Shown here one piece after another: positions 415 through 19,728 of a stretch of 22,452 nt of DNA. The notes beneath the pieces were generated by a model. That model was not told where the DNA came from, made no database searches, and worked only from the letters and a program-made list of their open reading frames with translations. Where the stretch lies: the IMG/VR virus record IMGVR_UViG_3300030090_007208, positions 1 to 22,452 of that record, one strand, 5' to 3'. Within the stretch, counting starts at the first letter, position 1. Each line of letters starts with the position of its first letter. This DNA comes from a virus. Made by a program: the position numbers and the translations under genes.

Positions 415-1765
415 ACTTACACAATATGGTCATCCGTTTCAAACAAAAGCATTAGCTGCGTTAGTAACAGATAGGGATTTTTTACAACAGTCAGCTGACA
501 TTGTATCTCCTGAATATTTTGATTCTGATGCAAGTAAATGGATTGTTCGTAAAACACTAACTTATTTTAATGAATATAGAACAACACCAACAATGGAAGT
601 TTTTAAAGTTGAGGTTGAAAAAATTCAAAATGAAGTACAAGCAGTTGCTGTAAAAGAACAACTAAAAGAAACATATAAATCATCACAAGTAAAAGATCTT
701 GAATATATTAAAGATACTTTTCTTGATTTTTGTAAAAATCAAACACTTAAAAATGCAATCGTACAATCTGTCGATTTACTTCAAAATGGTCAATATGACG
801 ACATAAAAGCAATCATAGATGAAGCTATGAAAGCTGGTGCGGCTAAAGATATTGGGCATGACTATATAGTAGGAATAGAGGAGAGATTAACTAAGTCAAG
901 CAGAAGCACGGTCAAAACTGGATGGAATGTTATTGATGAAATTATGGATGGTGGATTAGGTGGTGGTGAGTTAGGTGTTATGGTGGCGCCCGCTGGTATT
1001 GGTAAATCGTGGTGTTTACAGGCAATTGGAGCAGCTTCCGTCAAAAGAGGGTTATCTGTGGTTCACTATACATTAGAGTTGAACGAAAACTATGTTGGTC
1101 TAAGATATGATTCTATATTTAGTGGAGTTACAACTGCTAACATAAAATATTATAAAGAAGATGTACAAAAGAAAATTAGTGAATTAGATGGTAGGTTGAT
1201 AATCAAATACTATCCTACAAAATCAATCACAGTTCAAACTTTATCCGCTCATCTAAAACAATTAGAATTGCAGGATATGAAACCTGATTTGATGCTTGTT
1301 GATTATGCAGATTTATTAATCGGTACAGGTAGAGAAAAAAGACATATATTAGAATCAATATACGAAGATTTGAGGGGTTTAGCAGGTGAGTTTGATACGC
1401 CAGTATGGACTGCATCACAAGCTAATCGTTCTTCATTGGAGGAGGAAATTATAGACGCGAGTAAAGTTGCGGAGAGTTATGCAAAAGTTATGATAGCTGA
1501 TTTTGTAGTTTCTTTGAGTAGAAAAGTTGAGGACAAAATATCAAATACAGGCAGATTTCACGTGATAAAAAATAGATTCGGAATAGATGGGATTACATAT
1601 CCAGCTATGATGAATACAAACATAGGTAAAATTGAAGTGCATGAATCAACTTCAAAAAGTGGCAAGGAACAACAATCTAAAATGGATAATTCTGAAGAGT
1701 ATTTGCGTAAAACATTATCAAACAAATACAATGATATGAATAAATCTGTAGATGGTTTTGAATAA
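407..1765 (+). CDS. 41: replicative DNA helicase, DnaB / T4 gp41 type
   Basis: A 452-residue protein with the two-part layout of DnaB-family helicases. Residues 1 to about 150 form an all-helical N-terminal domain. About 165-420 form a RecA-like ATPase core starting at TGWNVIDEIMDGGLGGGELG. The Walker A loop is APAGIGKS (residues 194-201, Lys200, Ser201), and the Walker B strand LMLVDYADLL has Asp299. The QANRSS segment and the RFHVIKNRFG segment near the end match the later helicase motifs. The ring helicase unwinds DNA ahead of the phage polymerase and recruits primase, but no primase gene is in this window. The ATG lies inside the end of the exonuclease gene, and the length is close to T4 gp41 (475 residues). 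The C-terminal 35 residues are polar and probably disordered. Confidence 0.93.
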   Translation: MNKLTQYGHPFQTKALAALVTDRDFLQQSADIVSPEYFDSDASKWIVRKTLTYFNEYRTTPTMEVFKVEVEKIQNEVQAVAVKEQLKETYKSSQVKDLEYIKDTFLDFCKNQTLKNAIVQSVDLLQNGQYDDIKAIIDEAMKAGAAKDIGHDYIVGIEERLTKSSRSTVKTGWNVIDEIMDGGLGGGELGVMVAPAGIGKSWCLQAIGAASVKRGLSVVHYTLELNENYVGLRYDSIFSGVTTANIKYYKEDVQKKISELDGRLIIKYYPTKSITVQTLSAHLKQLELQDMKPDLMLVDYADLLIGTGREKRHILESIYEDLRGLAGEFDTPVWTASQANRSSLEEEIIDASKVAESYAKVMIADFVVSLSRKVEDKISNTGRFHVIKNRFGIDGITYPAMMNTNIGKIEVHESTSKSGKEQQSKMDNSEEYLRKTLSNKYNDMNKSVDGFE

Positions 1766-1770
1766 AGTAG

Positions 1771-1827
1771 AGTATATATTATATTTAGTTATGAGTTTTT
1801 TATATCGAAAACAAAACAATATATACT
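1771..1827. repeat. inverted repeat in the helicase-reductase gap
   Basis: The 83-base gap between helicase and reductase contains a perfect 10-base inverted repeat. AGTATATATT (1771-1780) is the reverse complement of AATATATACT (1818-1827), with 37 bases between. The interval also holds GTTTT and AAAAC runs that could pair inside it. A weak sigma70-like pair, TTGAAT at 1758 and TATATT at 1780 (16 bases apart), overlaps the left arm. The right arm ends 6 bases before the AGGAGA ribosome binding site (1834-1839) of the reductase. It could be an operator or a leader hairpin. The arms are almost entirely A and T, so chance is a real alternative. Confidence 0.35.
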
Positions 1828-1848
1828 TCGGTTAGGAGAAAGTTTTAA

Positions 1849-3858
1849 ATGGAAAAATTTAAGTTATCTGATAATTTTCTTAATAAATTTAAGAGAAAGA
1901 AGGCACCATTTGGTTTTAACGGATTAGGTGAATTGGTTTATATGAGAACATATTCTCGTATAAAAGAGAATGGTAAAAATGAAAGATGGTGGGAAACGGT
2001 TCAGAGGGTTGTAGAGGGAACATACTCAATGCAAAAAGAACATATTGAATCATTATCATTAGGTTGGAATGCATGGCAAGCACAAAGGTCGGCGCAAGAG
2101 ATGTATGAAAGAATTTTTAATATGAAGTTCTTACCACCAGGTCGTGGTTTATGGGCTATGGGTACACCAATCACAGAAGAAAAGAATTTATACGCGGCAC
2201 TTAATAATTGTGCATTCGTATCAACTAAAACACTCAAAGAAGATTATTCAAAACCATTTTGTTTCTTAATGGACGCATCTATGTTAGGTGTTGGAGTTGG
2301 ATTTGATACCAAAGGTGCTGGTGAGATTATAATAAAAGGTGTTAACAAAGATAGAAATGAAGAGGTATATGAAATACCCGATACTCGTGAGGGTTGGGTA
2401 GAATCACTTCGTTTACTTTTAGAAAGTTACTTTCACGGAACTGCTCACGTAGAGTTTGACTATACTAAGATACGAGATGAAGGAGAACCAATCAAAGGTT
2501 TTGGAGGAGTAAGTTCAGGTCCTGAACCACTAAAAGAAGTACACAATAGTATTAGAAAAGTATTAGAGGATAATAGCGGAGAACCAATCACAATCACAAC
2601 AATCGTAGATATTATGAATCTAATCGGTAAATGTGTTGTGGCTGGTAATGTAAGAAGAACAGCAGAGATTGTTTTTGGTGACCCACATAATGAAGAGTAT
2701 TTAGATTTAAAAAACTACAAAGTAAATCCTGATAGAGAAACTTATGGTTGGACATCCAATAATAGTATTTTCGCAGAGTTAGGAATGGATTACACAGAAG
2801 CTGCAAAAAGAATAATAGATAATGGTGAGCCAGGTTTTGCTTGGTTAGATAATATGAGACATTATTCTCGTATGAAAAATGGTGGTGATAACAAAGACCA
2901 TAGAGCTATGGGTGGTAATCCGTGTTTAGAGCAAACCTTAGAGTCATATGAATTATGTTGTTTGGTTGAGACATTTCCTAGCAATCACGATTCATTTGAG
3001 GACTATGCTAGAACATTAAAATACGCATATCTTTATGCAAAAACAGTCACATTGGGTGGAACTCATTGGGCTGACACAAATAGGGTTATGTTGAGAAACA
3101 GAAGAATTGGTTGTAGTGTGAGCGGAGTCGCACAATTTATTACAAAAAATGGTTTGGGTGAATTAAAAGATTGGTTGGAAGATGGTTATGATGTCATAAA
3201 AGAATGGGACACAAAATATTCAGATTGGTTCGCAGTCCCACGTTCAATCAAAACTACCTCAGTTAAACCAAGCGGTACGGTATCTTTATTAGCAGGTGCT
3301 ACACCAGGCTTACATTATCCTGAGAGTAGATTTTATATTAGAAGAATTAGGTTGTCAAAACATTCAGAGTTGATTGAACCTATGAAAAAAGCAGGTTATA
3401 AGATAGAACCAGCCTTTGGTTCAGAGGATACGACTTCGGTTGTTGAAGTTCCTGTTGATGTTGGTGAGGGGATAAGAACCGCATCAGAGTTATCAATATG
3501 GGAACAATTCTCTTTAGCAGCTTTTATGCAAAGACATTGGGCTGATAATCAGGTTAGTTGCACAGTTACATTTAATCCAGAAACAGAGGGGGATGAAATA
3601 TCGCATGTATTGAATTATTTTCAATACCATTTAAAAGGTATTTCACTATTACCACGACACGATTATGGTGCTTACAAACAAATGCCATATGAGTCTATAG
3701 ATGAAAATGAATATAAAAAGCAAGTTAGTAAACTTAGTAAACTATCATTTGGAGTTATCAAAAATGAAGAAGCTGAAATTGATAAGTTCTGTAATAACGA
3801 TAGTTGTGAAGTTCCCTCTTTAACTGGTGATAATGATGACCAAGAATACGCAAACTAA
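1849..3858 (+). CDS. nrdJ: adenosylcobalamin-dependent (class II, monomeric) ribonucleoside-triphosphate reductase
   Basis: A 669-residue enzyme that reduces ribonucleotides to deoxyribonucleotides using vitamin B12 coenzyme, so it needs neither oxygen nor a second subunit. It matches the Lactobacillus leichmannii RTPR family. Cys121 (NNCAFVST) and Cys370 (YELCC) correspond to the redox pair. Cys359 and Glu361 in NPCLEQ correspond to the thiyl-radical Cys and its glutamate, and the 11-residue distance from Cys359 to Cys370 equals that in the known enzyme. A C-x4-C pair (Cys648, Cys653) near the end matches the swinging re-reduction cysteines. TTSVKPSGTVSLL is the conserved late barrel motif. 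The ATG follows AGGAGA at 1834-1839. The protein is slightly shorter than the 739-residue Lactobacillus enzyme. Its base composition is a little richer in GC than the replication genes. No nrdA/B or nrdD gene is visible. Confidence 0.93.
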   Translation: MEKFKLSDNFLNKFKRKKAPFGFNGLGELVYMRTYSRIKENGKNERWWETVQRVVEGTYSMQKEHIESLSLGWNAWQAQRSAQEMYERIFNMKFLPPGRGLWAMGTPITEEKNLYAALNNCAFVSTKTLKEDYSKPFCFLMDASMLGVGVGFDTKGAGEIIIKGVNKDRNEEVYEIPDTREGWVESLRLLLESYFHGTAHVEFDYTKIRDEGEPIKGFGGVSSGPEPLKEVHNSIRKVLEDNSGEPITITTIVDIMNLIGKCVVAGNVRRTAEIVFGDPHNEEYLDLKNYKVNPDRETYGWTSNNSIFAELGMDYTEAAKRIIDNGEPGFAWLDNMRHYSRMKNGGDNKDHRAMGGNPCLEQTLESYELCCLVETFPSNHDSFEDYARTLKYAYLYAKTVTLGGTHWADTNRVMLRNRRIGCSVSGVAQFITKNGLGELKDWLEDGYDVIKEWDTKYSDWFAVPRSIKTTSVKPSGTVSLLAGATPGLHYPESRFYIRRIRLSKHSELIEPMKKAGYKIEPAFGSEDTTSVVEVPVDVGEGIRTASELSIWEQFSLAAFMQRHWADNQVSCTVTFNPETEGDEISHVLNYFQYHLKGISLLPRHDYGAYKQMPYESIDENEYKKQVSKLSKLSFGVIKNEEAEIDKFCNNDSCEVPSLTGDNDDQEYAN

Positions 3859-3889
3859 AATTTCACATACAAAAAGCGGACAGGCAGTA

Positions 3890-3913
3890 GACACACCTGT
3901 GAAAAAATGTGTC
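3890..3913 (+). promoter_or_regulatory. possible leader hairpin before the TonB-dependent receptor
   Basis: In the 83 bases between reductase and receptor, GACACA (3890-3895) is the reverse complement of TGTGTC (3908-3913), with a 12-base interval CCTGTGAAAAAA. An inner CACA/TGTG pairing is a competing fold. The element ends about 17 bases before the AAGGAGA ribosome binding site at about 3929-3935. It could be an mRNA leader structure for the receptor transcript. No convincing -35/-10 pair is visible here, so where transcription of the receptor starts is unclear. A six-base stem is short enough to be chance. Confidence 0.25.
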
Positions 3914-3941
3914 GTACTAAACAATAACAAGGAGATTCGAT

Positions 3942-6716
3942 ATGAAAAGTCGTAATCTAATTGCTATGATGATGACTCTACTAACACCGATGATGTTGTT
4001 TGCACAATCGGTAACAGGAACAGTTACATCAGAAGCAGGAGACCCTTTAGCTAATGCTAATATTGTTGTAGTTGGTACTGATTTAGGTACAATTTCAGAT
4101 GAAACTGGAACATTTGTACTTGATTTAGGTGCTGGTGACTATACAATTACAGCTACAGTAATTGGGTTTAAACCACAATCACAACTTGTGAAGATTACAG
4201 AAGCTGATACAGACTTGATGATGGCTTTTGTTCTACCGCTAAACGTGATTGAATTGTCAGACGTTGAAGTTCTTGCTTCAAGAGCTGACGATAAAACACC
4301 TGTTGCTTACACAACCGTTAGTAAAGAAGAGTTAGAAGTTCGTCTTGGTTCACAAGATATTCCGATGGCTTTAAATACTACACCAAGTGTATATGCAACA
4401 CAACAAGGTGGTGGTGCGGGTGATGCTCGTATCAATGTTCGTGGATTCAACCAAAGAAACGTAGCAGTTATGATTAACGGAGTTCCCCAAAATGATATGG
4501 AGAACGGATGGGTTTATTGGAGTAACTGGGATGGAGTAGCCGATGCTGCTAACTCAATTCAGTTACAAAGAGGTCTATCAGCGGTTAATTTAGCTACACC
4601 ATCTATTGGTGGAACCATGAACATCATTACAGACCCAGCTGCAAACGAGAGAGGTGGTAAGTTTAAACAAGAGGGTGGTGCAGGTAATTTCTTGAAAACA
4701 ACTTTTAACTACAATACTGGTTTGATGATGGGTGATAAATTAGCGTTGAGTGGTACACTTGTTCGTAAGACAGGTGATGGTATCATTGATGCTACTTGGA
4801 CAGACGCATGGGCATACTACCTAGGTAGTAGTTTTCAAATGAATGAGAACAATCGATTCGAACTTTACGCGATTGGTGCTCCACAACGACATGGACAAAA
4901 TCTATATAAACAGAACATAGCTACATACTCACAAGATTTAGCTGGGGATATAGATGGATATGACGTTACTGCTTTCGCAGAGGGTAATAAGTTCGAGACA
5001 GAAGCCGGTAGAACATTCAACCAAAATTGGGGGCCTGTAAGTTCCGATTACACAGGTAAACAATACTGGTATATGTATGGTGTCGGTGGATTGTTCGGTG
5101 GTGGAAACCAACCAAGATACAACTCTAACTTTTTGAATGAAAGAGAAAACTTCTTTCACAAACCATTGGTTAACCTTAACCATTTTATGACCATTAACGA
5201 AAAGACAAGACTAAGTTCAGTATTGTATTGGAGTGGTGGTTCAGGTGGTGGAACTGGTACTTATGGTTCATCATTCAGAAAACCAGCAGTTGACGGACAG
5301 AAATGGTATAGAAGTTCACCTTGGGGTTGGGATTGGGATGCAGCTATCGCAACCAACTCTGATAGGGTAGACGCTAACTTTCACGCAACAGAGAATCGTT
5401 CAAAAGGTATTCTTCGTAACTCAATCAACAGACAAAACACTTATGGTTTGATTTCTAAACTTAACTACGATGTTAGTGATGAGTTAGAAATACAAGTCGG
5501 TCTTGATTGGAGAACAGCAGGTATTGAACACGCTCGTGAGGTACGTGACCTACTTGGTGGTGACTATTATGTAGACTACGCCGACGACAACGCACCTGAT
5601 GGTAAAGTTGTTCGTTTAGGTGATGAAATTGCTTATCACAACTCTACAACCGTAGATTGGATTGGTGGATTCTTACAAGGTAACTACACCAAGGATAAAC
5701 TAAACCTATATGGTATGGGTGGATTATCAAGTATTAAATATACTTACCAAGACCACTTTACAGTAGCTAACGAAGTAGTTGAAGCAGATGCTATTTCTAC
5801 TTTCCAAATCAAGGGTGGAGCTATGTATGACGTTGATGATAATGTTAGTGTGTTCGCTAACACAGGATACGTTCAGAAACCACCAATTATGGATAACGTA
5901 ATCTACTATGATGGTACAGTTGCGTCAGACCCATCTAACGAGAAGTTTGTCAGTTCAGAAGCTGGTGTAAATTTCAACACCGAAAATGTAGCAGTCAAAG
6001 TGAGTGCTTACAATACTGATTGGATGGATAGAAACCTAACTAAATCTGTCACAACAGGTCAAGGTGACTCAGGTGATACCGACGTTATTTTCTTGAGTGG
6101 TATCAATCAGAAACACCAAGGTCTTGAGATTGAAGCTTCTATGAAACTTAATGATATGATTCGTTTAGACGGAGCTGTTTCATTTGGTAATTGGAAGTTT
6201 GACGGAGATGCTAAAGGTAACTACCAAGAGAATGAGTATAATGCAGAGGGTCAAGTTATTGGTTTAAAGACCACACCTTACTCTTATGCACTTGATGGAT
6301 TATGGGTAGGTGACATGCCTCAGACAGCTTATGTTATGGGTGCTACACTTACACCAATCAAAGGTCTTAGACTACAAGGTATCTTGAAGATGTACGATAA
6401 GAACTACTCAGATTGGAGTCCAAATGCACGTGAGTATGATGGTAGTGATGCAGACGCTGACAGAAGTCAAGTTTGGATGGCACCAAAGTATAATCGTTTA
6501 GACCTACATGGTTCTTACAAACTACCAAAGATTGGTGGTTTAGATATGAGTGTTAACGCTCATATATTCAACGCGTTAGATGCAGTTTATGTACAAGATG
6601 CCGTTGATAATTCACAGTACAATGGTTTTGGTGATAAACTTCACCTACCACATAACGCAGAGGTATTCTTAGGAACACCACGTTATGCTAATATTGGATT
6701 AGTTGTCAATTTCTAG
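3942..6716 (+). CDS. TonB-dependent outer-membrane receptor with carboxypeptidase-regulatory-like N-terminal domain
   Basis: A complete 924-residue receptor. Residues 1-21 are a signal peptide (basic start, Met/Leu-rich core, cleavage expected at LFA|QS). About 24-100 form a carboxypeptidase-D-regulatory-like beta domain (VTGTVTSEAGDPLANANIVV). A TonB-box-like stretch DVEVLA lies at 107-112. A plug domain follows (INVRGFNQRNVAVMINGVP through GGTMNIITDPA), then a barrel of about 650 residues ending IGLVVNF, whose terminal Phe is the usual signal for barrel assembly. Such receptors import siderophores, cobalamin or glycans across the outer membrane using TonB energy. The layout is that of FCB-group bacteria. 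A ribosome binding site AAGGAGA precedes the ATG and a strong terminator follows. It is GC-richer than the replication genes: rough hand counts of two 60-base lines give 40 and 47 percent against 27 and 30. This suggests later acquisition. The substrate cannot be read from sequence. Confidence 0.93.
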   Translation: MKSRNLIAMMMTLLTPMMLFAQSVTGTVTSEAGDPLANANIVVVGTDLGTISDETGTFVLDLGAGDYTITATVIGFKPQSQLVKITEADTDLMMAFVLPLNVIELSDVEVLASRADDKTPVAYTTVSKEELEVRLGSQDIPMALNTTPSVYATQQGGGAGDARINVRGFNQRNVAVMINGVPQNDMENGWVYWSNWDGVADAANSIQLQRGLSAVNLATPSIGGTMNIITDPAANERGGKFKQEGGAGNFLKTTFNYNTGLMMGDKLALSGTLVRKTGDGIIDATWTDAWAYYLGSSFQMNENNRFELYAIGAPQRHGQNLYKQNIATYSQDLAGDIDGYDVTAFAEGNKFETEAGRTFNQNWGPVSSDYTGKQYWYMYGVGGLFGGGNQPRYNSNFLNERENFFHKPLVNLNHFMTINEKTRLSSVLYWSGGSGGGTGTYGSSFRKPAVDGQKWYRSSPWGWDWDAAIATNSDRVDANFHATENRSKGILRNSINRQNTYGLISKLNYDVSDELEIQVGLDWRTAGIEHAREVRDLLGGDYYVDYADDNAPDGKVVRLGDEIAYHNSTTVDWIGGFLQGNYTKDKLNLYGMGGLSSIKYTYQDHFTVANEVVEADAISTFQIKGGAMYDVDDNVSVFANTGYVQKPPIMDNVIYYDGTVASDPSNEKFVSSEAGVNFNTENVAVKVSAYNTDWMDRNLTKSVTTGQGDSGDTDVIFLSGINQKHQGLEIEASMKLNDMIRLDGAVSFGNWKFDGDAKGNYQENEYNAEGQVIGLKTTPYSYALDGLWVGDMPQTAYVMGATLTPIKGLRLQGILKMYDKNYSDWSPNAREYDGSDADADRSQVWMAPKYNRLDLHGSYKLPKIGGLDMSVNAHIFNALDAVYVQDAVDNSQYNGFGDKLHLPHNAEVFLGTPRYANIGLVVNF

Positions 6717-6727
6717 GAGTTTTAATT

Positions 6728-6757
6728 AGGGGGGATTTATTCCCCCCTTTCTCTTTT
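6728..6757 (+). terminator. intrinsic terminator after the receptor gene
   Basis: An 8-base-pair stem, AGGGGGGA (6728-6735) with TCCCCCCT (6741-6748), closes a TTTAT loop and is followed by a T-rich tract, TTCTCTTTT. It begins 12 bases after the receptor stop. Six consecutive G-C pairs in a genome this rich in A and T make chance unlikely. It would isolate the receptor transcript from the genes to the right. Confidence 0.88.
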
Positions 6758-6764
6758 CAATATC

Positions 6765-7292
6765 ATGGAAGAAAAAAAAATATTAACAGAAGTAAAGACT
6801 TGGATAACCGAGTATTTAGAAATACCAAATGAAAATTTTGGTGGTATGCCAGTATGTCCCTTTGTAAAAGCTGAAAGGGAAAAAAACAAATTAATGTTCG
6901 AAATCTGGTACCCGAATAAAACATCATTTATCGAAGTATTAGATAAATTTAAAAATAGTGAATTTTCATCAGCCTTAGTAATATGTATGAATACAGATGG
7001 ATTACTTTGGGAAGAGGTTGATAGAAAAAAATATCAAAAAACAATTCAAATCTTAATGAAAGAAAACGGATATACGGATATCAAAGCTTTATGTTTCTCA
7101 CCGTTTGAACATCACACAGCGGCCGGGGAAGAAACAAGAAAAGGTTCACCATACTTTTTAATTAATATAGCCGGTACAGATGAATTAAATGTAGCACATC
7201 GAAAATTATTAAAAACATCTTACTTTGATAAATTTACTGATGACGAGGTAAAGACCTTAAAAGTATATCCTAAAAAGAAGAAAAAATTATAA
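6765..7292 (+). CDS. DUF1415-like protein of unknown function
   Basis: A 175-residue soluble protein without signal peptide or membrane segment. From memory of the bacterial DUF1415 family, three features agree: a CPFVKAER segment near residue 31 (family pattern CPFAK), a middle helical part ending in a CFSPFEHHTAAGE segment (family pattern of F-H-P then an aromatic-rich loop), and a following RKGSPYFLINIA segment (family pattern N-R-S-P-Y-P). The relationship is therefore likely but distant, and the family's function is unknown. The C-terminus is a lysine-rich tail. It starts 8 bases after the receptor terminator, with no clear ribosome binding site before its ATG. It must therefore be transcribed from read-through or an unseen promoter. 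It precedes the polymerase promoter. Confidence 0.55.
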   Translation: MEEKKILTEVKTWITEYLEIPNENFGGMPVCPFVKAEREKNKLMFEIWYPNKTSFIEVLDKFKNSEFSSALVICMNTDGLLWEEVDRKKYQKTIQILMKENGYTDIKALCFSPFEHHTAAGEETRKGSPYFLINIAGTDELNVAHRKLLKTSYFDKFTDDEVKTLKVYPKKKKKL

Positions 7293-7300
7293 AAAAACAC

Positions 7301-7330
7301 TTGACAAGTATAGGTTTTTTTTCGTATATT
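7301..7330 (+). promoter_or_regulatory. sigma70-like promoter upstream of the DNA polymerase gene
   Basis: TTGACA (7301-7306) and TATATT (7325-7330) are separated by 18 bases, which is a near-consensus sigma70 promoter. It lies 31 bases before the polymerase start codon. The same arrangement, with the same CAC before the -35, GTATAG after it, TTCG before the -10 and ACATAAATTA downstream (7334-7343), recurs at 13877-13906. The two copies therefore support each other as a conserved phage promoter class, probably for early or replication genes. Confidence 0.85.
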
Positions 7331-7361
7331 CTAACATAAATTAAATTGGGAAATTATATAG

Positions 7362-9875
7362 TTGTATCAAAACATTTATTATGACAGACGAGTAAATAAG
7401 ATGCACGTTTGGGATGACAAAGCTGGTCATCTAACGTTTCGTTATAAAAAATACGCTTACACAAAAAATCGTAACGGCACTTATCTATCTTTATATGGTG
7501 ATAAACTCACAAGAATAAACAAGTGGGATGAAGACCAACCAGATTTATTCGAATCGGATGTAAACCCAGAAATCAGGGTATTGGTTGATAACTACACGGA
7601 TTCAGATGACGTATCAGAGGGTCATCGCGTGATGATTTTTGATATAGAGGTTGAGGTAACGGATGGTTTTCCAGACGTAGCAAAAGCTGAGAATAAAATT
7701 ACATCTATCGCTTTTAATGACCCGGTTTTAAATAAATACTATTGTTATGTGTTAGACCCAACAGATAAATTAAATTTAGGTAAAGAAAGAACAAGAGAAG
7801 ATGGTGATACAATCGTTTCTTTCTATGATGAGTATGACTTACTAAACGCCTTTTATAAAAAATACATGGAGATACAACCAACCATTTTAACAGGTTGGAA
7901 CGTTGAATTTTTCGATGTACCGTATTTATATAACAGGTCTCAACAAGTTCTTGGTCAAGAGATTGCTAATTTATTATCACCGATACAAATAGTGAGATGG
8001 AATAGTTTCAAAAAAAGATTTATTATAGCTGGTGTTAGTACACTTGATTATTTAAGTTTGTACAAAAGATTTACATTTAGTCAAAAAACTTCTTATCGAT
8101 TAGATGCTATAGGTGAGGATGAGGTTGGAGAGAAAAAGGTTTCTTATGAGGGAACGTTAAATGATTTGTATGAAAACGACTTAGAAAAATTTGTTCAATA
8201 CAATATACAAGACGTGAAACTTGTAAAAAAGTTGGATGACAAGTTAGATTTTATTGAAATAGCTCGTGGTTTGGCTCATCTTGGTCATGTGCCTTATGAG
8301 TCTATTTATATGTCATCACATTATCTTGAGGGAGCTATATTAGTTTATTTAAAGAAAAACAATATAGTTGCACCAAACAAACCACCAAGACCAGAAACAT
8401 TTAATGCTGAGGATAAATTCACTGGTGCGTATGTTCAAGACCCACAACGAGGTAAACATGATTGGGTTTATGATTTAGATATTACCTCGATGTATCCATC
8501 TTGTATCATGTCTTTAAATATATCACCAGAGACCAAACTTGGTAAAATACAAGGTTGGAATCCTGAAGAATTTTTAAATAAAAAAAATAAAAAGACGTAT
8601 TCAATCACACAAGGTAAAAATACTTTAGGTGTGTTTACTGAAACTGAGTTGAAGAACTTTTTGTCCAATAGAGACGTATCGGTTGCTACAAATGGAGTTA
8701 TGTATCGTTCTGATAAAGATGGTTTATTACCAGCACTTCTTAGAAAATGGTTTGACGAAAGAGTTGAGTATCGTAAATTATCGAAGAAGTTTCATGAAGA
8801 GGGTGATAAGGAAAAATCAGATTATTTCGAACGACGACAATATCTACAAAAGGTTGTTTTAAATAGTTTGTATGGTGTGTTGGGTTTATCTGTTTTTAGA
8901 TTTTATGATGTTGATAACGCTGAAGCTGTAACAACAACTGGTCAATCATTAATAAAATTTACAAAAAAGATTACCAACAATTACTACAATAAAGAATTAC
9001 AAGATAATTTAGATTATTGTATTTACATTGATACTGATTCGGTATTTTATTCAGCAACACCATTAGTGACAAAACGTTTTCCAAATCTAGATATCAAAAA
9101 CGAAGATAAAATGTCAAAAGCTATCCTTGAGATTGCTAGTGAAGTCCAATCGTATCTGAACAAAGGTTATGATTATTTTGCTAAAAAGTTTTGTAATCTT
9201 GATAAACATCGATTTGATATCAAACAAGAGGTTATTGCTAAAAGTGGTTTATTCGTAACAAAGAAAAGATATGGTCTAAAGATTATTAATGATAATGGTA
9301 AAAAAGTTGATAAAATGATGGTCAAGGGTTTAGATACAGTCCGTAGTAGTTTTCCTATAGCCATGAAAGAAATGTTGTCTAAATTATTAGATGATATCAT
9401 GATGGACGTACCAAAAGATAAATTAGATAAATTTATTTTGAACTTTAAAAAGAGTATGAAGTTGATGGATTTTGAAAAGATAGCCATACCAACAGGTATG
9501 AAAGGTCTTGAAAAGTATAAAGATAATACCGATGTGTTATTCACTGGTTATAAACTGGGGACGCCAGTGCATGTGAAGTCTGCCATCTTTCATAATGATT
9601 TATTAAGATATTATAAAATGGATAAACGTTATGAAAAGATAATTAACAACGAAAAGATTAAATGGGTATATTTGAAACAAAATGAATTTAATTTAAGTGT
9701 TATAGCGTTTAAAGGTTATGATGACGCACCTCAGATTATTGATTTTATCAAACGACACATAAATACTGAGAAAATTTATGAACAAGTGTTACATAAAAAA
9801 ATTATGATGTTATATGAAGCTCTTGGTTGGGATGAACCAACAGATGCAACAAAAACCATAGAAAGATTTTTTTGA
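7362..9875 (+). CDS. 43: family B DNA polymerase, T4 gp43 type
   Basis: An 837-residue replicative polymerase with proofreading. The 3'-5' exonuclease carries MIFDIEVEV (Asp94, Glu96), TGWNVEFFDVPYLYNR, and YNIQDVKLV with the expected YxxxD aspartate. The polymerase domain carries motif A DLDITSMYPS (Asp373), motif B KVVLNSLYG (Lys497, Asn501, Tyr504) and motif C YIDTDS (Asp557, Asp559). A later KKRYG motif is also present. All catalytic residues are intact. T4 gp43 is 898 residues. I use TTG at 7362 as the start: a stop codon (TAG) lies directly before it, GGGA at 7348-7351 is suitably placed, and the segment YQNIYYDRR looks like a natural family N-terminus. The next in-frame ATG (7401) would remove it. 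It heads the transcription unit after the 7301 promoter. Confidence 0.95.
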   Translation: MYQNIYYDRRVNKMHVWDDKAGHLTFRYKKYAYTKNRNGTYLSLYGDKLTRINKWDEDQPDLFESDVNPEIRVLVDNYTDSDDVSEGHRVMIFDIEVEVTDGFPDVAKAENKITSIAFNDPVLNKYYCYVLDPTDKLNLGKERTREDGDTIVSFYDEYDLLNAFYKKYMEIQPTILTGWNVEFFDVPYLYNRSQQVLGQEIANLLSPIQIVRWNSFKKRFIIAGVSTLDYLSLYKRFTFSQKTSYRLDAIGEDEVGEKKVSYEGTLNDLYENDLEKFVQYNIQDVKLVKKLDDKLDFIEIARGLAHLGHVPYESIYMSSHYLEGAILVYLKKNNIVAPNKPPRPETFNAEDKFTGAYVQDPQRGKHDWVYDLDITSMYPSCIMSLNISPETKLGKIQGWNPEEFLNKKNKKTYSITQGKNTLGVFTETELKNFLSNRDVSVATNGVMYRSDKDGLLPALLRKWFDERVEYRKLSKKFHEEGDKEKSDYFERRQYLQKVVLNSLYGVLGLSVFRFYDVDNAEAVTTTGQSLIKFTKKITNNYYNKELQDNLDYCIYIDTDSVFYSATPLVTKRFPNLDIKNEDKMSKAILEIASEVQSYLNKGYDYFAKKFCNLDKHRFDIKQEVIAKSGLFVTKKRYGLKIINDNGKKVDKMMVKGLDTVRSSFPIAMKEMLSKLLDDIMMDVPKDKLDKFILNFKKSMKLMDFEKIAIPTGMKGLEKYKDNTDVLFTGYKLGTPVHVKSAIFHNDLLRYYKMDKRYEKIINNEKIKWVYLKQNEFNLSVIAFKGYDDAPQIIDFIKRHINTEKIYEQVLHKKIMMLYEALGWDEPTDATKTIERFF

Positions 9876-9892
9876 TTTTGAGAAAACAAACT

Positions 9893-9910
9893 CATATATA
9901 TGTATATATG
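9893..9910. repeat. AT palindrome upstream of the clamp gene
   Basis: CATATATA (9893-9900) and TATATATG (9903-9910) form a perfect 8-base inverted repeat around TG. The 15-mer TATATATGTATATAT (9895-9909) recurs exactly at 16093-16107, again in a leader. A TATAAATA sequence follows at 9913-9920 and AGGAGA (9923-9928) is the clamp ribosome binding site. It is a candidate operator or regulatory hairpin, but low complexity leaves chance open. Confidence 0.4.
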
Positions 9911-9935
9911 GTTATAAATAATAGGAGAATACCGC

Positions 9936-10658
9936 ATGAATAGAGAAAAGTTCGTTAGTTTTATTAAAAAATATCATCTAGATGGACTAGTTAATTCTGC
10001 CATTTTAACTTTCAAAGATAGTAAATTAAGCACTCGTTTTACAAACGGTGATAAATCAATCTTAGGAATGATAGAATTAGATAATTGGGATTTTGAACCA
10101 GGTGATTTTGGTGTTTATGACGCTGGTGTATTTGTTAAATTAATAGAGGTTCTTGATAATGATATTGAAATGAAAATAAGTAGAGCAGGTGACAAAGCTA
10201 TTTCGATACAAGTATCAGATAAAAACTCTAAAATACAGTATATGTTGTCAGATACAACCCTAATAAATCAACCTCCAGTGCCAGAGAAATTACCAACTGA
10301 CTTTGATTTAAAAATAGATGTCAATAAACAATTTATTGATAAATTTAAAGCAGGGACAAACGCCTTACCAGAAACAGAGACATATAGTGTTCTAACAAAT
10401 AATGGAGAAACACAAGTGGTGATAGGGTACTCAACGGTCGGAACAAACAGGGTGACACTACCAGTTACAACAACTGAATATAGTGATTTAGATTTGATTT
10501 CTTTTAATGCAAAACATTTTAAAAGTGTTTTAAACGCCAATAGTAAATGTGAAAGTGCGTTACTTGAAATTAGTCCATCAGGATTATCAAAGATAACATT
10601 TAAATTTGATGACTTTAGGTCGGAGTATTACTTAGTAGCAGTACAAGACGTTGATTAA
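9936..10658 (+). CDS. 45: DNA polymerase sliding clamp, T4 gp45 type
   Basis: A 240-residue protein that fits the phage sliding clamp: similar in length to T4 gp45 (228 residues), beta-rich, with two clamp-like halves. The first half opens with a helix (MNREKFVSFIKKYH) and strands (SAILTFKDSKLSTRF); the second starts near residue 125 (FDLKIDVNKQFIDKFKAGTNALP). The end (FKFDDFRSEYYLVAV) matches the closing strands of gp45-like clamps. The ring tethers polymerase to DNA, and in T4 it also couples replication to late transcription. Position supports the call: polymerase is upstream and the clamp loader downstream. It has a strong ribosome binding site, AGGAGA, 7 bases before its ATG. Its stop overlaps the next start as TAATG. 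Confidence 0.85.
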   Translation: MNREKFVSFIKKYHLDGLVNSAILTFKDSKLSTRFTNGDKSILGMIELDNWDFEPGDFGVYDAGVFVKLIEVLDNDIEMKISRAGDKAISIQVSDKNSKIQYMLSDTTLINQPPVPEKLPTDFDLKIDVNKQFIDKFKAGTNALPETETYSVLTNNGETQVVIGYSTVGTNRVTLPVTTTEYSDLDLISFNAKHFKSVLNANSKCESALLEISPSGLSKITFKFDDFRSEYYLVAVQDVD

Positions 10659-12049
10659 TGATTAACGGTTTAAGAATTTTACATTATGTCTCTCCTGTAA
10701 GGTTTGATAAAACAGGATTGTTTCAACATGAATTTGACTCTAATTACAAAGTGGTAGAAAAGACAATTTCTTTTTTACCACGATGTCATCATTATGTTGT
10801 TGTGCCAAAAAAACATAACATACCAGATACAAGAGATAATGTAACTTTTATTAATTACCCGTATTCAAGAGATTTATTAGCCAATAGGTCATATTTCGAT
10901 GGTGTGACTTTTAGAAATCTATTTGATTTTCGATATATGGATTTTGATTTTGTTTTTTGTCATCAACCAGAGATGCTTTATAATATTTTAGTCTCATTTA
11001 ATGATAAACGATATGGTCAAAACATGAATAGGTTTTTGTTCTTTCATTGGGTTGATTGTAGTCAAAGTAGAGCATCGAGTGCCATACCACCCGCATACAT
11101 GAGACAATTAGAAGCAATAAATTTGTGTGACAATGTATTTTTTCATACAGACATAGCATCTGAATGGTTAGGTAAAAATTTTAAAAATGAACAAAGCACG
11201 ACATTCAATCATGATTATATAAAAGATAAAACACAAACATTTCCAATATCAGCTGATGAATTACAAGATATTGAACCATTTGATATTGAACATGAAAATG
11301 TTTTAGTTTTTAATCATAGATGGGCTAAGTCAACTGGTGTTAATCGGATGATGGAATATATTGATGGATTAGATGATTTCAAAATATGGGCCACGGATTA
11401 TCAGGCACCAAAAGAATATGTCGGTTCAAATTTGAATCGTGGTCAATATAGATATTTGTTAGAAAATTCTTTGGGAAGTATGAGTTTTGTTGATAGTTAC
11501 GCTACCTGGAATCTTTCCATACAAGATGGTTTATCAGTAAAAAAACCCGTTTTGGTTTATGACCAACCAGCTATGAGAAAAGTTGTCGGTGATGATTATC
11601 CTTTGTTTTTTAAAACTAAGGACGAATTTCACACACAAGTTAAAAATTTAAAACAGATGGGTAATTTTACTTGGGACATACCAAATCACGATGAAAAGTT
11701 TGCCTATAATATTATAAAGTCAATTTCAAATATAATGAGTAAACCTAGAAAACACATTCCAAAAGATGCTAATAATTGGTTGTATTGTATTTTAAATGGT
11801 TTGAATTACAAACATGATATTGCAAAACAAGTACAACCAAATCTGCAATTAAATTCGGTATGGCAATATATTCGTAGATACTTATTAGAGATAGGGGTCA
11901 AGGACAACATCAATAGTCCGTTTGTTAATTATTCAATACCTGATGAGATAAAAGACCAAGTCCAAAACATGGTGAAGAATGTTAACTTAGATATCGAACC
12001 TCGAACAATCAAAAGAAAAATAGTAACAAAAAAACATAACTGGTTTTAA
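10658..12049 (+). CDS. glycosyltransferase-like protein (GT-B fold likely)
   Basis: A 463-residue soluble protein. The N-terminal half starts LRILHYVSPVRFDKTG, and its core VFFHTDIASEWLGKNF resembles the acceptor domain of GT-B enzymes. From about residue 213 a second Rossmann-like half follows, with LVFNHRWAKSTGVNRMMEYI (NHRW at 219-222) and a late IQDGLSVKKPVLVYD segment that takes the place of the usual nucleotide-sugar-binding loop. The classic EGFG..E motif seen in the genes at 16554 and 17951 is absent, so donor binding is uncertain. About 95 C-terminal residues (from DANNWLYCILNGLNY) form an extra helical domain. It is wedged between clamp and clamp loader, translationally overlapping the clamp (TAATG). 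It could be a DNA-sugar transferase, but only the fold-level call is supported. Confidence 0.6.
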   Translation: MINGLRILHYVSPVRFDKTGLFQHEFDSNYKVVEKTISFLPRCHHYVVVPKKHNIPDTRDNVTFINYPYSRDLLANRSYFDGVTFRNLFDFRYMDFDFVFCHQPEMLYNILVSFNDKRYGQNMNRFLFFHWVDCSQSRASSAIPPAYMRQLEAINLCDNVFFHTDIASEWLGKNFKNEQSTTFNHDYIKDKTQTFPISADELQDIEPFDIEHENVLVFNHRWAKSTGVNRMMEYIDGLDDFKIWATDYQAPKEYVGSNLNRGQYRYLLENSLGSMSFVDSYATWNLSIQDGLSVKKPVLVYDQPAMRKVVGDDYPLFFKTKDEFHTQVKNLKQMGNFTWDIPNHDEKFAYNIIKSISNIMSKPRKHIPKDANNWLYCILNGLNYKHDIAKQVQPNLQLNSVWQYIRRYLLEIGVKDNINSPFVNYSIPDEIKDQVQNMVKNVNLDIEPRTIKRKIVTKKHNWF

Positions 12050-12051
12050 TT

Positions 12052-12978
12052 ATGAACATTAATAAATCAAATACGCTTTGGGTAGAAAAGTATCGGCCTT
12101 CCAACCTCGACAACTACATCGGTAATGAACATCTAAAAAGTAAAGTCGAGATTTACTTAGAGAGTGGAGATTTACCACACCTTTTATTATACGGAAAGGC
12201 TGGTACAGGTAAAACCACTCTCGCTAAATTACTTGTAAAAAACATTAGTTGTGATTATCTTTACATAAATGCAAGTGATGAAAATAACGTTGAGACCGTC
12301 AGAACAAAAGTAAAAAACTTTGCTTCCACGGTTGGTTTTGAAGATATAAAGGTAATTATTTTAGATGAGTGTGATTACATTACACCAAACGCACAAGCCG
12401 CACTTCGTAATCTTATGGAGACATTTAGTAAACATTGTAGATTTATCTTAACTTGTAATTATGTTGAAAGAATTATTGACCCAATACAAAGTCGTTGTCA
12501 ATCTTTTCAAATCATACCACCATCTAAAACTGATGTAGCTAAACATCTACACAATATATTGTTACAAGAAAATATTATTGATAAACCAGAGGATATAAAG
12601 ATTTTAGTTGAAAGTGGTTATCCAGATATTCGTCGTGTAATAAATTCTGCACAGAGAAATGTGGTGAAGGGAAAACTAAAACTTGATACCTCTAGTATTA
12701 TTCAAAATGATTATAAATTAAAATTATTAAAGATTTTAGAAACACAAAATAAAAAGAACGCGTTTAAAGAAATAAGACAATTACTTGCGGACAATCAAAT
12801 TACAGATTTTGCAGAATTGTTTAGATTATTATATGACGAGGTTGATGGTTATGGTAAAGGTCATGTAGCCGAGTGTATCTTAATTATCGCAAGATATGAA
12901 CTTTCAGATAGTCAAGTGGTTGATAAAGAAATCAACGCTATGGCTATGATAATAGAATTATTAGGAGTGATTAAATGA
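12052..12978 (+). CDS. 44: sliding clamp loader ATPase subunit, T4 gp44 / RFC-small type
   Basis: A 308-residue AAA+ ATPase. It begins with the RFC-box LWVEKYRPSNLDNYIG, then Walker A GKAGTGKT (residues 48-55, Lys54), Walker B VIILDECD (Asp105, Glu106), a sensor-1 region FILTCNY, and the arginine-finger SRC motif (Ser147-Arg148-Cys149). The helical collar follows. T4 gp44 is 319 residues. Four copies with one gp62 open the clamp and place it on primer ends. The B motif reads DECD, the form also found in T4-like and archaeal/eukaryotic RFC variants. The start is 2 bases after the preceding stop and has no good ribosome binding site, so translation is probably coupled. Its end overlaps the next gene as ATGA. 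Confidence 0.95.
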   Translation: MNINKSNTLWVEKYRPSNLDNYIGNEHLKSKVEIYLESGDLPHLLLYGKAGTGKTTLAKLLVKNISCDYLYINASDENNVETVRTKVKNFASTVGFEDIKVIILDECDYITPNAQAALRNLMETFSKHCRFILTCNYVERIIDPIQSRCQSFQIIPPSKTDVAKHLHNILLQENIIDKPEDIKILVESGYPDIRRVINSAQRNVVKGKLKLDTSSIIQNDYKLKLLKILETQNKKNAFKEIRQLLADNQITDFAELFRLLYDEVDGYGKGHVAECILIIARYELSDSQVVDKEINAMAMIIELLGVIK

Positions 12979-16553: not shown

Positions 16554-17942
16554 ATGTCTAAAAAGAAAATATTACTATTATCGGATGATTTAAGAATGTC
16601 ATCTGGTATAGGAACCATGTCGAAAGAGTTTGTGTTGGGTACTATCCATCATTACGATTGGGTTCAAATTGGTGGTGCCATTAAACACCCTGAAAATGGT
16701 AAAGTGGTAGATATGAATGAATCCGTTAGAAAAGAAACAGGTGTGGAGGATGCTAATCTTAAGATTTATCCTGTTAATGGTTATGGTAGTCCTGATTTAC
16801 TAAGGAATCTTATTTCTATCGAAAAACCTGACGCTGTCATGCACTATACAGACCCAAGATTTTGGGGTTGGTTATATGATATGGAGCATGAAATTAGACA
16901 AATTATGCCAATATTTTATTATAATATTTGGGATGATTGGCCAGCTCCAAATTACAATGAAAACTTTTACGAGTGTTCTGATTTGATAATGAACATATCA
17001 AAACAAACAGTTGCAATCGTCAATGACGTAGCAAAGAACAAACCTAGAACAGATTGGGATTGCACATATATCCCACACGGTATTAGTGAAAAATATTTCT
17101 ATCCAATTTCAGTTTTTGATAAAGAGTATCAAGAGGTGGAAAATATGAAAAAACAACTAACTGACGATGATATTGAATTTATTGTATTTTATAATAATAG
17201 AAATATACGTAGAAAAATGACTGGTGATGTTGTGTTAGCGTTTAAGACTTTTTGTGATATGTTAACAGAGGAACAAAAGAATAAATGTGCCTTATTGATG
17301 CATACTCAACCAATTGATGAAAATGGAACCCACTTACCAAACTTGATTAATGATTTATGTCCAGAAGTTAAAGTTTATTTTAGTGATAAAAAACTTGAAC
17401 CTAAACATTTGAATCATTTATATAATTTAGCAGATGTTACAATCAACATTGCTAGTAACGAGGGATTTGGATTAGGAACTTGTGAATCATTGATGTGTGG
17501 AACACCAATCATTGTTAATGTTACAGGTGGATTACAAGACCAATGTGGGTTTGAACTTAACGGTAAACACTTAACTGTAAAGGATTATGAAGAGATTAAG
17601 TCATTACATGATGATAGAAAATGGGCTAATAATCCTGATTTAACTTGGGGTGAGTGGGTAAAACCTGTATGGCCTGCTACACGTTCATTACAAGGTTCAG
17701 TACCAACACCGTACATATTTGATGATAGATGTAGGTTTGATGACGCGGCTCAACGTATAAAAGAGTGGTATGATATGACTGCTGATGAAAGAAGAGATTG
17801 TGGTATGAAAGGTCATGAATTTGTAAAAAGAGAGGATGTCATGATGACGAGTGATATGATGTGTCAGAATTTTATAAACCACATGGATATGGGATTTGAG
17901 AAGTTTGAACCAAGAAAACGTTATAGTATCTTTAAAGCTTAG
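16554..17942 (+). CDS. GT-B glycosyltransferase, GT4-like
   Basis: A 462-residue soluble enzyme with two Rossmann-like halves. The first opens with KILLLSDDLRMSSGIGTMSK, whose glycine-rich turn after the first strand is typical of GT4 acceptor-side domains. The hinge is near YIPHGISEKYFYP. The second half has FIVFYNNRNIRRKMTGDVV and the donor-binding loop EGFGLGTCE with the E-x7-E pair (Glu303, Glu311), followed by MCGTPIIVNVTGG. The enzyme would move a sugar from a nucleotide-sugar donor to an unknown acceptor. It heads the glycan cassette that runs to the end of the window and stops 8 bases before the next glycosyltransferase. Its 460-residue length is rather long for GT4. Confidence 0.88.
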   Translation: MSKKKILLLSDDLRMSSGIGTMSKEFVLGTIHHYDWVQIGGAIKHPENGKVVDMNESVRKETGVEDANLKIYPVNGYGSPDLLRNLISIEKPDAVMHYTDPRFWGWLYDMEHEIRQIMPIFYYNIWDDWPAPNYNENFYECSDLIMNISKQTVAIVNDVAKNKPRTDWDCTYIPHGISEKYFYPISVFDKEYQEVENMKKQLTDDDIEFIVFYNNRNIRRKMTGDVVLAFKTFCDMLTEEQKNKCALLMHTQPIDENGTHLPNLINDLCPEVKVYFSDKKLEPKHLNHLYNLADVTINIASNEGFGLGTCESLMCGTPIIVNVTGGLQDQCGFELNGKHLTVKDYEEIKSLHDDRKWANNPDLTWGEWVKPVWPATRSLQGSVPTPYIFDDRCRFDDAAQRIKEWYDMTADERRDCGMKGHEFVKREDVMMTSDMMCQNFINHMDMGFEKFEPRKRYSIFKA

Positions 17943-17950
17943 GAGTAATG

Positions 17951-19279
17951 ATGAGTAAACCTTTATGTTTAGTAACTGCACCTGTCGCCACTAGAAGTGG
18001 ATATGGTGCACACGCAAGAGATATTTGCAGAGCATTAATTAAATTAGATAAATATGATGTAAAAATTTGGAGTGTGCGTTGGGGTAACACACCGATGAAC
18101 GCATTGAATCAACAAGACCCAAATGATAAAATGATAATAGATAGACTTTTACAGAATCCCCAATTACCAAAGCAACCTGAAATACATTTTCATATCGTGA
18201 TACCAAATGAATTCAATCCATTAGCTAAATTCAACATCGGTATCACAGCTGGACTAGAGATGACAGCATGTCCGCCTGTTTGGTTAGAGGGTATGAACAG
18301 AATGGATATGAATATTGTTCCATCTAATTTTGTAAAAGACACAATGAATCGTATAGTTTTTGATATTAACGATGAACAAACAAAACAAAAAAAAGGTGAG
18401 TTAAAAAATACAAAACCAATCGAAGTTTTGTTTGAGGGGACAGACACAAATATTTTTAAAAAGACTAATGAGTTCAGTGCACCATTTCTTAAAGAAATGA
18501 AAAAAGTTAAAGAGTCTTTTAATTTTTTATATGTGGGACATTGGTTACAAGGTGATTTAGGTAAAGACAGAAAAGATACTGGTATGATGTTAAAAGTGTT
18601 TTTAGAGACCTTTAAAAACATGAAAAATAGTCCAGGTTTAATCATGAAAACGAGTGGTGCTGGGTTTTCAGTATTGGATAGAGAGCAAATGTTAGCAAAG
18701 ATAAAATCAATAAAATCCATGATAAAAGGTGACCTACCAAACGTATATTTATTACATGGTGATTTTACCGACAATGAAATGAATGAATTGTATAATCATC
18801 CAAAAGTAAAGGCACACGTCAATCTAACACACGGTGAGGGATTTGGTCGTCCACTTCTTGAGGCTAGTATTTCACAAAAACCTGTGATTGCACCTAATTG
18901 GAGTGGTCATGTTGATTTTTTGAATAAAGACCAGGCAATATTATTAAACGGAGACTTAACTAGTGTCGAGAAAGGTTCGGTACCTGATGAATTTTTAGTT
19001 GATGGTTCACAATGGTTTACCGTTAACTATCAAGAGGCTTCAGCGTATATGAGTGATGTATATAAAAACTACAGAAAATATTCTTTAAATGCAAAGAAAT
19101 TAGGTACGATAAACAAATCCAAATTTTCCTTAAATGCTATGACAAGACAACTTGATAAAATTCTGAATCAGTATGTACCTGAATTTCCAAAAGAGGTAAA
19201 ATTAAATCTACCAAAATTAAAAAAAGTAGGTGGTGATAATCTTCCAAAAATAAAACTACCAAAATTAAAGAAAGTATAA
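17951..19279 (+). CDS. GT-B glycosyltransferase, GT4-like, with basic C-terminal repeat tail
   Basis: A 442-residue enzyme. The N-terminal half has LVTAPVATRSGYGAHARDI (glycine turn) and FNIGITAGLEMTACPPVWLE. The hinge is near VLFEGTDTNIFKK, and the donor loop is EGFGRPLLE (E-x7-E, Glu297 and Glu305 when counted from the upstream ATG at 17948) followed by KPVIAPNWSGHVDFL. I prefer ATG 17951 because AGGAG (17941-17945) is then 5 bases away, against 2 for 17948. The last 26 residues are an unusual basic tail with LPKLKKV twice and LPKIK between. It has no hydrophobic segment, so it could bind a nucleic acid, an acidic glycan or a membrane surface. It works next to the GT at 16554, possibly on the next sugar of the same chain. 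Confidence 0.88.
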   Translation: MSKPLCLVTAPVATRSGYGAHARDICRALIKLDKYDVKIWSVRWGNTPMNALNQQDPNDKMIIDRLLQNPQLPKQPEIHFHIVIPNEFNPLAKFNIGITAGLEMTACPPVWLEGMNRMDMNIVPSNFVKDTMNRIVFDINDEQTKQKKGELKNTKPIEVLFEGTDTNIFKKTNEFSAPFLKEMKKVKESFNFLYVGHWLQGDLGKDRKDTGMMLKVFLETFKNMKNSPGLIMKTSGAGFSVLDREQMLAKIKSIKSMIKGDLPNVYLLHGDFTDNEMNELYNHPKVKAHVNLTHGEGFGRPLLEASISQKPVIAPNWSGHVDFLNKDQAILLNGDLTSVEKGSVPDEFLVDGSQWFTVNYQEASAYMSDVYKNYRKYSLNAKKLGTINKSKFSLNAMTRQLDKILNQYVPEFPKEVKLNLPKLKKVGGDNLPKIKLPKLKKV

Positions 19280-19280
19280 T

Positions 19281-19727
19281 ATGGAAAAAGTAATAGATTG
19301 TCCAGTTTGTTTTGATAATGATAAATGTTTTGAGGATGAACAAGATGGTTTTAGTTCTTACCTTTGCTTTAATTGTGGTTACATGAGTGATTCTAGATAT
19401 GAATTAGGTAGTCTTAAGTTAGATGATAATTTAAAAAAATCACCACGATTAATACAAGACAATAAATTTCACGATAAAAAAAGAAATATAATTTGGTTTC
19501 CGGCTGTATTGAATATGGGTGAGTTAGGTATGATTTTTCCTGAGGGAACAAAAGATGAAGACGATTATGTTTGGAAATACGCTAAAATCGTAGAGATACC
19601 TGAGGGTCAACGTGAGATTTATGATAATTATGATAGAAGACTTGATGTTGAAAATGCAAAGACATTTAAGAAAACTGAATTTTTAGCGGCCTGTAAAGAG
19701 ATGGGTATCACAAAGGATTTAAGTTAG
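19281..19727 (+). CDS. zinc-ribbon protein of unknown function
   Basis: A 148-residue protein whose N-terminus is a zinc ribbon: CPVC (Cys7, Cys10) and CFNCG (Cys29, Cys32), with 18 residues between the pairs. The rest is a mixed domain with NIIWFPAVLNMGELGMIFPEG and, later, RLDVENAKTFKKTEFLAACKEMG, which reads as a beta sheet followed by helices. I recognise no enzyme motif. Proteins of this design are frequent in large marine phage genomes. It starts 1 base after the GT stop. It lies inside the glycan cassette, but whether it takes part in glycan synthesis is unknown. Confidence 0.75.
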   Translation: MEKVIDCPVCFDNDKCFEDEQDGFSSYLCFNCGYMSDSRYELGSLKLDDNLKKSPRLIQDNKFHDKKRNIIWFPAVLNMGELGMIFPEGTKDEDDYVWKYAKIVEIPEGQREIYDNYDRRLDVENAKTFKKTEFLAACKEMGITKDLS

Positions 19728-19728
19728 T

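Follow-up and report, generated by a model that had tools for sequence, protein, structure and literature searches.

TonB-dependent receptors (TBDRs) have been found in phages before. A SusC-like TBDR is present in the megaphage Mar_Mega_1 and in LR745206, where it was proposed to aid uptake (PMC9723777), and TonB plug and receptor domains occur in many viral genomes from gut bins that were assigned to the genera Bacteroides and Alistipes (PMC8857322). Phage-borne TBDRs are therefore already known as a kind. TBDRs such as FhuA are also known as phage receptors, and the Cor proteins of phi80 and N15 inactivate them, acting as exclusion factors (PMC11436027). Here, we analyzed a stretch of 22,452 nucleotides (the window; positions 1 to 22,452 of IMG/VR virus record IMGVR_UViG_3300030090_007208), in which a TBDR gene is found among phage replication genes. 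The auxiliary genes known from phages mostly act within the cytoplasm. All features of the window described below are on the plus strand.

The receptor gene and its product

The gene from position 3942 to position 6716 is an intact open reading frame encoding 924 amino acids (aa). A preliminary description of the sequence had called it a complete TBDR, and this was confirmed by the domains and the predicted fold. The product starts with a putative Sec-type signal peptide (aa 1 to 21, positions 3942 to 4004) ending in FAQ (...LFAQ), with an N-terminal helix at residues 3 to 19 in an AlphaFold2 model. Next come a CarboxypepD_reg-like domain (aa 22 to 104, positions 4005 to 4253; PF13715 match at aa 24 to 110), the TonB-box candidate EVLASR (aa 109 to 114, positions 4266 to 4283), a plug domain (aa 117 to 237, positions 4290 to 4652; PF07715 match at aa 117 to 225, 56.6 bits against a cutoff of 23.9), and a predicted beta barrel with a C-terminal Phe (aa 238 to 924, positions 4653 to 6713). 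EVLASR lies between the N-terminal domain and the plug, which is the place expected for a TonB box, and was invariant in 79 of 79 phage and cellular sequences; contact with TonB is a prediction.

The barrel was well predicted by AlphaFold2 (pLDDT of >80 in most blocks), and 22 strands were assigned from the DSSP string of the model. The plug was poorly predicted; mean pLDDT was 72.8, and pTM was 0.69. All 50 PDB fold matches listed by Foldseek were TBDRs, with Fiu, PqqU, and FhuA among the top ones and E values down to 1e-25. The plug and the modeled 22-strand barrel place the protein in the TBDR superfamily. The closest PDB folds were varied TBDRs at 10 to 14% identity, and a substrate assignment via solved structures was rejected, as these were remote TBDR matches only. 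In the Pfam search, the PF00593 profile was not reached. The SusC/RagA profile TIGR04056 scored 61.2 bits, below its cutoff of 368.25, and no SusD-like lipoprotein gene was found among the neighbors scanned in the window or beside the host orthologs.

Neighboring genes and expression unit

The location of the receptor gene in a T4-like phage replication region agreed with the preliminary description. Upstream is nrdJ (positions 1849 to 3858), which is a fixed neighbor of the receptor gene and encodes a ribonucleotide reductase of class II, the adenosylcobalamin-dependent type (361.8 bits over the cutoff of NCBIfam TIGR02505; phrog_367). Downstream are an accessory gene for a DUF6875-like protein of 175 aa (positions 6765 to 7292), present in few relatives, and the fixed neighbor, a T4-like family B DNA polymerase (PolB) gene (positions 7362 to 9875; PF00136; phrog_262, E value of 2.6e-184). 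The TBDR neighbors as a whole are T4-like replication genes (DnaB helicase, NrdJ, family B polymerase, clamp, and clamp loader), and related contigs also hold genes for a gp32-like protein and a baseplate wedge. With a T4-type replisome here and myovirus genes in its relatives, the phage is T4-like (Straboviridae-related).

The ribosome binding site and terminator described earlier were both recovered, the former as the Shine-Dalgarno sequence AAGGAG (positions 3929 to 3934) and the latter as an intrinsic terminator hairpin, AGGGGGG-loop-CCCCCCT, with a T-rich tail (positions 6728 to 6748); GC-rich hairpins also follow the TBDR gene in relatives. A sigma-70-like promoter, TTGACA-N18-TATATT (positions 7301 to 7330; 11/12 match), precedes the PolB gene. 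Most relatives share the strong terminator and the PolB promoter, and phages with an empty site have retained the promoter, there without leader or TBDR. No clear promoter was seen between nrdJ and the TBDR gene, so that the two are probably read from a shared transcript.

Over the 19.9 kb that were compared, the window equals the first part of the 54,960-bp IMG/VR contig 3300030090_005625. A long run of sugar genes lies downstream (window positions 16554 to 22452, and L224 to L225, contig positions 15,000 to 54,960), with glycosyltransferases, NeuB, GDP-mannose dehydratase, epimerases, and C-methyltransferases. It looks like a phage-encoded glycan pathway spanning most of the contig.

Distribution among phages

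A search for other phage-borne receptors had been proposed in the preliminary description. In a protein scan, at least 312 IMG/VR stretches were found to encode relatives of the TBDR, the best 80 of the 312 being 68 to 100% identical. Among GenBank phages, 17 of 50,697 records matched; two matches, in short unannotated gut contigs, cover most of the TBDR length at about 30% identity. The commonest gene order was exonuclease, DnaB, NrdJ, TBDR, PolB, clamp, and clamp loader. Among 112 loci with both NrdJ and PolB (loci, not phages, as some overlap as pieces of one contig), the TBDR gene lay between them in 72 and not in 40, and the spacers without it were mostly shorter than 160 bp. A scan seeded with the polymerase is neutral toward TBDR presence; at the 78 loci found in this way, the TBDR was present in 31, missing in 38, and unclear in 9. 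The TBDR is thus dispensable to the phage. Exactly one copy was found in each of the 15 long TBDR contigs searched.

In a second context, genes for QueD, QueE, QueC, and GTP cyclohydrolase lie downstream of the TBDR gene, and one such contig carries baseplate and tail-fiber genes. The QueD-QueE-QueC-FolE cluster of the 7-deazaguanine pathway (L018, positions 9454 to 12319) suggests modified DNA. A tRNA-like gene, read by eye, occupies the NrdJ-PolB spacer of three TBDR-minus loci (L103, L104, and L105). In L133 (positions 4864 to 7899), nrdJ is broken by an in-frame insert resembling an intein with an endonuclease, and in G003 (the contig of L032; positions 35435 to 39959), it is in three pieces.

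Origin of the phage TBDR

The nearest cellular relatives of the phage TBDR were found in Marinimicrobia/Neomarinimicrobiota. Each of the four Marinimicrobia genomes searched in full had a single ortholog at 62 to 69% identity, and the other TBDRs in these genomes reached at most 36%. The receptor phylogeny suggested earlier was built from 81 sequences with a site-heterogeneous model. The 37 phage representatives all fell into one deep clade (SH-aLRT of 100) among Marinimicrobia receptors, its sister being 10 Marinimicrobia rows (support of 98). The exception is L158, a 4.3-kb contig from a Marinimicrobia metagenome-assembled genome (MAG), which forms a long branch within the phage clade; strict phage monophyly was therefore not upheld. 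Because a constraint keeping the phages together was not rejected (p-AU of 0.076), either phage-to-host transfer or tree error may account for this placement. On the same contig (L158, positions 986 to 4265), the TBDR gene is accompanied by a second TBDR start in tandem.

The gene had been described as 10 to 15 points richer in GC than the replication genes. The measured gap was 4 to 10 points (39.7% against 29 to 35% in neighbors), and the excess was located in codon positions 1 and 2. At fourfold-degenerate sites, the TBDR gene had 9.2% GC against 11 to 22% for its neighbors, the lowest of those tested; the value was 8.7% over all phage copies against a cellular mean of 30%. The high GC content thus reflects amino acid composition, and GC was rejected as a sign of recent transfer. 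Judged by its synonymous sites, the gene is long adapted to the mutation bias of the phage. The earlier idea of recent host cargo did not hold, as the gene is an ancient acquisition, its synonymous composition resembles that of the phage, it occurs commonly among marine phage contigs, and its leader is seen only in phages.

On the best reading, a T4-like marine phage lineage acquired the TBDR in the distant past from a bacterium of the Marinimicrobia type (SAR406). SAR406 bacteria are abundant and hardly cultured. The TBDR, conserved and linked to the phage replication region, points to SAR406 as the source of the gene and as the probable host of the phages. Proof of the host via close phage polymerases was tried and abandoned, because 245 Marinimicrobia genomes gave only matches of 34 to 38% identity. 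The neighbors of the host ortholog (DnaG, SRAP, U32 peptidase, and Lon) form no uptake operon and were uninformative on the substrate.

A pseudoknot in the leader of the TBDR gene

The 83-nt gap between nrdJ and the TBDR gene contains a TTCACATAC motif (positions 3862 to 3870), which most phage TBDR leaders share and some lack, and an H-type RNA pseudoknot of 34 nt (positions 3880 to 3913). Helix P1 pairs positions 3880 to 3884 with 3896 to 3900 (ACAGG/CCTGT), and P2 pairs positions 3890 to 3895 with 3908 to 3913 (GACACA/TGTGTC, 6 bp). L1 is CAGTA (positions 3885 to 3889), with CA(G) at its start, L2 has zero nucleotides, and L3 (positions 3901 to 3907) is A-rich. In 32 distinct leader cores of fixed length, a set that excludes a few leaders whose loops differ in length, 96.0% of the pair cells held standard pairs. 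Compensatory cells numbered 34 against 9.3 after shuffling, the covariation score was reached in 0 of 500 shuffles, and three pairs covaried in each helix. Pairing was destroyed when the helix partners were slid out of register. In the L052 leader, P2 pairing is imperfect. The leader is thus an H-type pseudoknot RNA with two interleaved helices that show compensatory change. A naive pseudoknot finder gave 34% background matches in AT-rich DNA, and because of this high background, the evidence is limited to the covariation test and the pattern scans.

Exact-pattern scans with two P2 variants recovered the pseudoknot in at least 176 distinct IMG/VR stretches. Among the 176 listed, tblastn placed a TBDR downstream in 157; the remaining 19 stop within 250 nt, and those inspected begin the same TBDR, which ties the pseudoknot to this gene in 176 of 176. 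NrdJ was upstream in 152 of the listed stretches, and the TBDR was placed elsewhere in about 21. The pseudoknot was found in two genomic contexts, both times with the TBDR. It was not seen in the leaders of the cellular TBDR orthologs examined or in the empty NrdJ-PolB spacers examined. Rfam 15 gave no gathering match in the window; for the leader, the best E value was 1.7, to unrelated families, and none fitted up to an E value of 10.

In most copies, the pseudoknot lies 15 to 18 nt from the Shine-Dalgarno sequence. Since it is confined to phages, tied to the TBDR, and placed just ahead of the ribosome site, it travels together with the gene, and its most likely role is to control translation of the TBDR. 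More tentatively, the leader could be a new class of cis-regulatory RNA confined to phages, which would set importer translation in response to either the solute taken up or a replication protein; we regard this as possible rather than probable. If it is true, the phage runs a regulated nutrient-uptake circuit, beyond carrying an auxiliary gene. The first TBDR codons (window positions 3942 to 3970; RNL, CGTAATCTAAT) also show low synonymous variation among phages, 0.29 in codons 1 to 10 against about 0.4 elsewhere in phage TBDRs. This is perhaps part of the translation control.

Selection and the role of the receptor

The median dN/dS of the TBDR gene was about 0.17, with 0.09 to 0.19 for five neighboring replication genes. 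Across 79 aligned phage and cellular sequences, 75% of the plug sites (aa 128 to 237) were invariant among phages, and only three sites showed near-fixed differences between phages and cells. Extracellular loops were assigned from the predicted strand order, and the ratio of their variation to that of the rest of the barrel was 1.01 in phages and 1.24 in cells. At matched overall divergence, the phage/host loop ratio was 0.81 (confidence interval, 0.71 to 0.92; label permutation P value of 0.001). Indirectly, the loop constraint speaks more for a transport function that was retained than for a decoy under diversification.

The preliminary description had offered nutrient import and receptor replacement as plausible roles, and both were retained, with unequal weight. 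We consider it somewhat probable (about 0.58) that the gene encodes a functional outer-membrane importer, captured long ago from a SAR406-type bacterium and kept for uptake during infection. At the level of sequence, it appears as an intact ortholog of one conserved cellular TBDR, under purifying selection, at a fixed site and with a phage-specific leader. The invariant EVLASR, the near-invariant plug, the low dN/dS, and the constrained loops count in favor of import, as do the single host ortholog, the one phage clade, the leader tied to the gene, the one copy per contig, and the empty sites, where leader and TBDR are both missing but the PolB promoter is retained. A further point in its favor is the abundance of Marinimicrobia TBDR transcripts at the deep chlorophyll maximum (PMC13096325). 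Against it are the uninformative host context, the remote and varied PDB folds, and the absence of the TBDR from 38 of 78 loci. As an importer, the protein would be translated from a transcript that includes nrdJ and ends at the terminator of the TBDR gene, exported via Sec/BAM, and energized by host TonB-ExbBD. It would then keep supplying the cell with a growth-limiting solute during the shutdown of host expression, and the leader pseudoknot could tune its translation by binding a metabolite or a protein. If this is true, a widespread marine phage group controls what enters the infected cell.

A small protein with a TonB C-terminal domain (TonB_C) was found in four TBDR contigs and in none of nine TBDR-minus contigs, which gives a modest hint of a TonB-related function in part of the family. 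The proteins have 107 to 138 aa (L445, positions 2588 to 2956, minus strand; L446, positions 2747 to 3070, plus strand; G278, positions 24860 to 25048; and G261, positions 49114 to 49308). The two that were read have a signal peptide and lie near prepilin-like (N_methyl) genes, one also near a gp32-like gene. They are possibly TonB adaptors or decoys. A pattern scan for relatives recovered only the two known copies, as the patterns were too poor.

The main rival to import is receptor replacement or superinfection exclusion. Here, a TBDR that serves the phage itself or its competitors as a receptor would be made in the phage's own version, in amounts that flood the outer membrane, and later phages would remain unadsorbed or be dead-ended. 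FhuA-type receptors and Cor provide the precedent (PMC11436027), and the phage clade differs from the hosts by about 25 to 40%. TBDR presence changed at least five times on the PolB tree, and TBDR distances followed those of NrdJ (rho of 0.42) over those of PolB (0.28) and DnaB (0.13), so that the NrdJ-TBDR part appears to have been swapped among phage backbones. Such poor linkage between TBDR alleles and the backbone also fits a role in phage-phage competition, and the relatively faster loops of the hosts are expected under phage attack. However, the TonB box and the plug would be unneeded for exclusion alone, yet they are invariant or nearly so, and the phage loops are constrained rather than diversified. 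We regard exclusion as less probable than import, but as a serious alternative.

Supply of vitamin B12 to the adjacent B12-dependent NrdJ is attractive because the TBDR gene directly follows the gene for this adenosylcobalamin-dependent enzyme in most of the listed stretches. It is nonetheless improbable: no cobalamin riboswitch was found in the window or near the loci of 22 relatives, BtuB was missing from the top 50 PDB folds, no cobalamin genes occurred among the host neighbors scanned, TBDR-minus relatives retain NrdJ, and in the approximately 21 listed stretches noted above, the TBDR is elsewhere than behind NrdJ. Still less credible is a passenger gene that recombination has spread and that makes no difference to phage fitness. 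The polymorphism in presence/absence and the exchange of alleles would suit it, but purifying selection over deep divergence, invariant motifs, a covarying leader RNA with compensatory changes, a fixed site, and a single copy argue against it. Lastly, an assembly chimera or a bacterial contig mislabeled as viral, both raised in the preliminary description and suggested by two family phage contigs (L157 and L206) binned into unrelated Flavobacteriales and Euryarchaeota MAGs, likely by error, can be dismissed because the same junctions were found in contigs of many samples and across many levels of divergence, and contigs of 50 to 216 kb carry the gene.

Comparison with known systems

The defined 34-nt RNA and the single host ortholog lend themselves to direct tests for ligand, transport, and phage exclusion. 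The ortholog from Candidatus Marinimicrobia (Neomarinimicrobiota/Fidelibacterota, SAR406) is full-length, co-linear, and 58 to 69% identical to the phage protein, with the same motifs and an invariant TonB box. It differs in its flanking genes, in having no pseudoknot leader, in its mean fourfold GC content (30%, against 9% in phages), and in its relatively faster loops.

The T4 gene 32 leader and the preQ1-I and SAM-II riboswitches are compact H-type pseudoknots with an A-rich loop, placed ahead of a start codon. Like the T4 gene 32 operator, the phage TBDR leader has a pseudoknot followed by an open, A-rich segment that reaches the ribosome site. Unlike these RNAs, it has no Rfam match, occurs only before the TBDR, and has an empty L2 and a P2 of 6 bp.

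Among phage-borne receptors, the match to the LR megaphage records spans 14 to 24% of the window TBDR query at 26 to 34% identity, and these phages are unrelated; no fixed locus or leader was described for the Mar_Mega_1 and LR745206 TBDR (PMC9723777). The gut viral bins represent different phages, in largely temperate-rich bins, with no conserved synteny or leader reported (PMC8857322). PHROG 5687, a phage family of unknown function, matches the plug region only (aa 118 to 234). SusC/RagA proteins (TIGR04056) likewise have an N-terminal regulatory-like domain and a plug, but the phage TBDR scores below their cutoff, and no SusD neighbor was seen in the window. In the open-access literature searched, neither this T4-like TBDR lineage nor its leader was found to have been reported, and no Rfam family matched the leader. 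This comparison suggests that what is new is a T4-like lineage with a TBDR at a fixed replication locus, derived from one Marinimicrobia ortholog and preceded by a phage-only pseudoknot.
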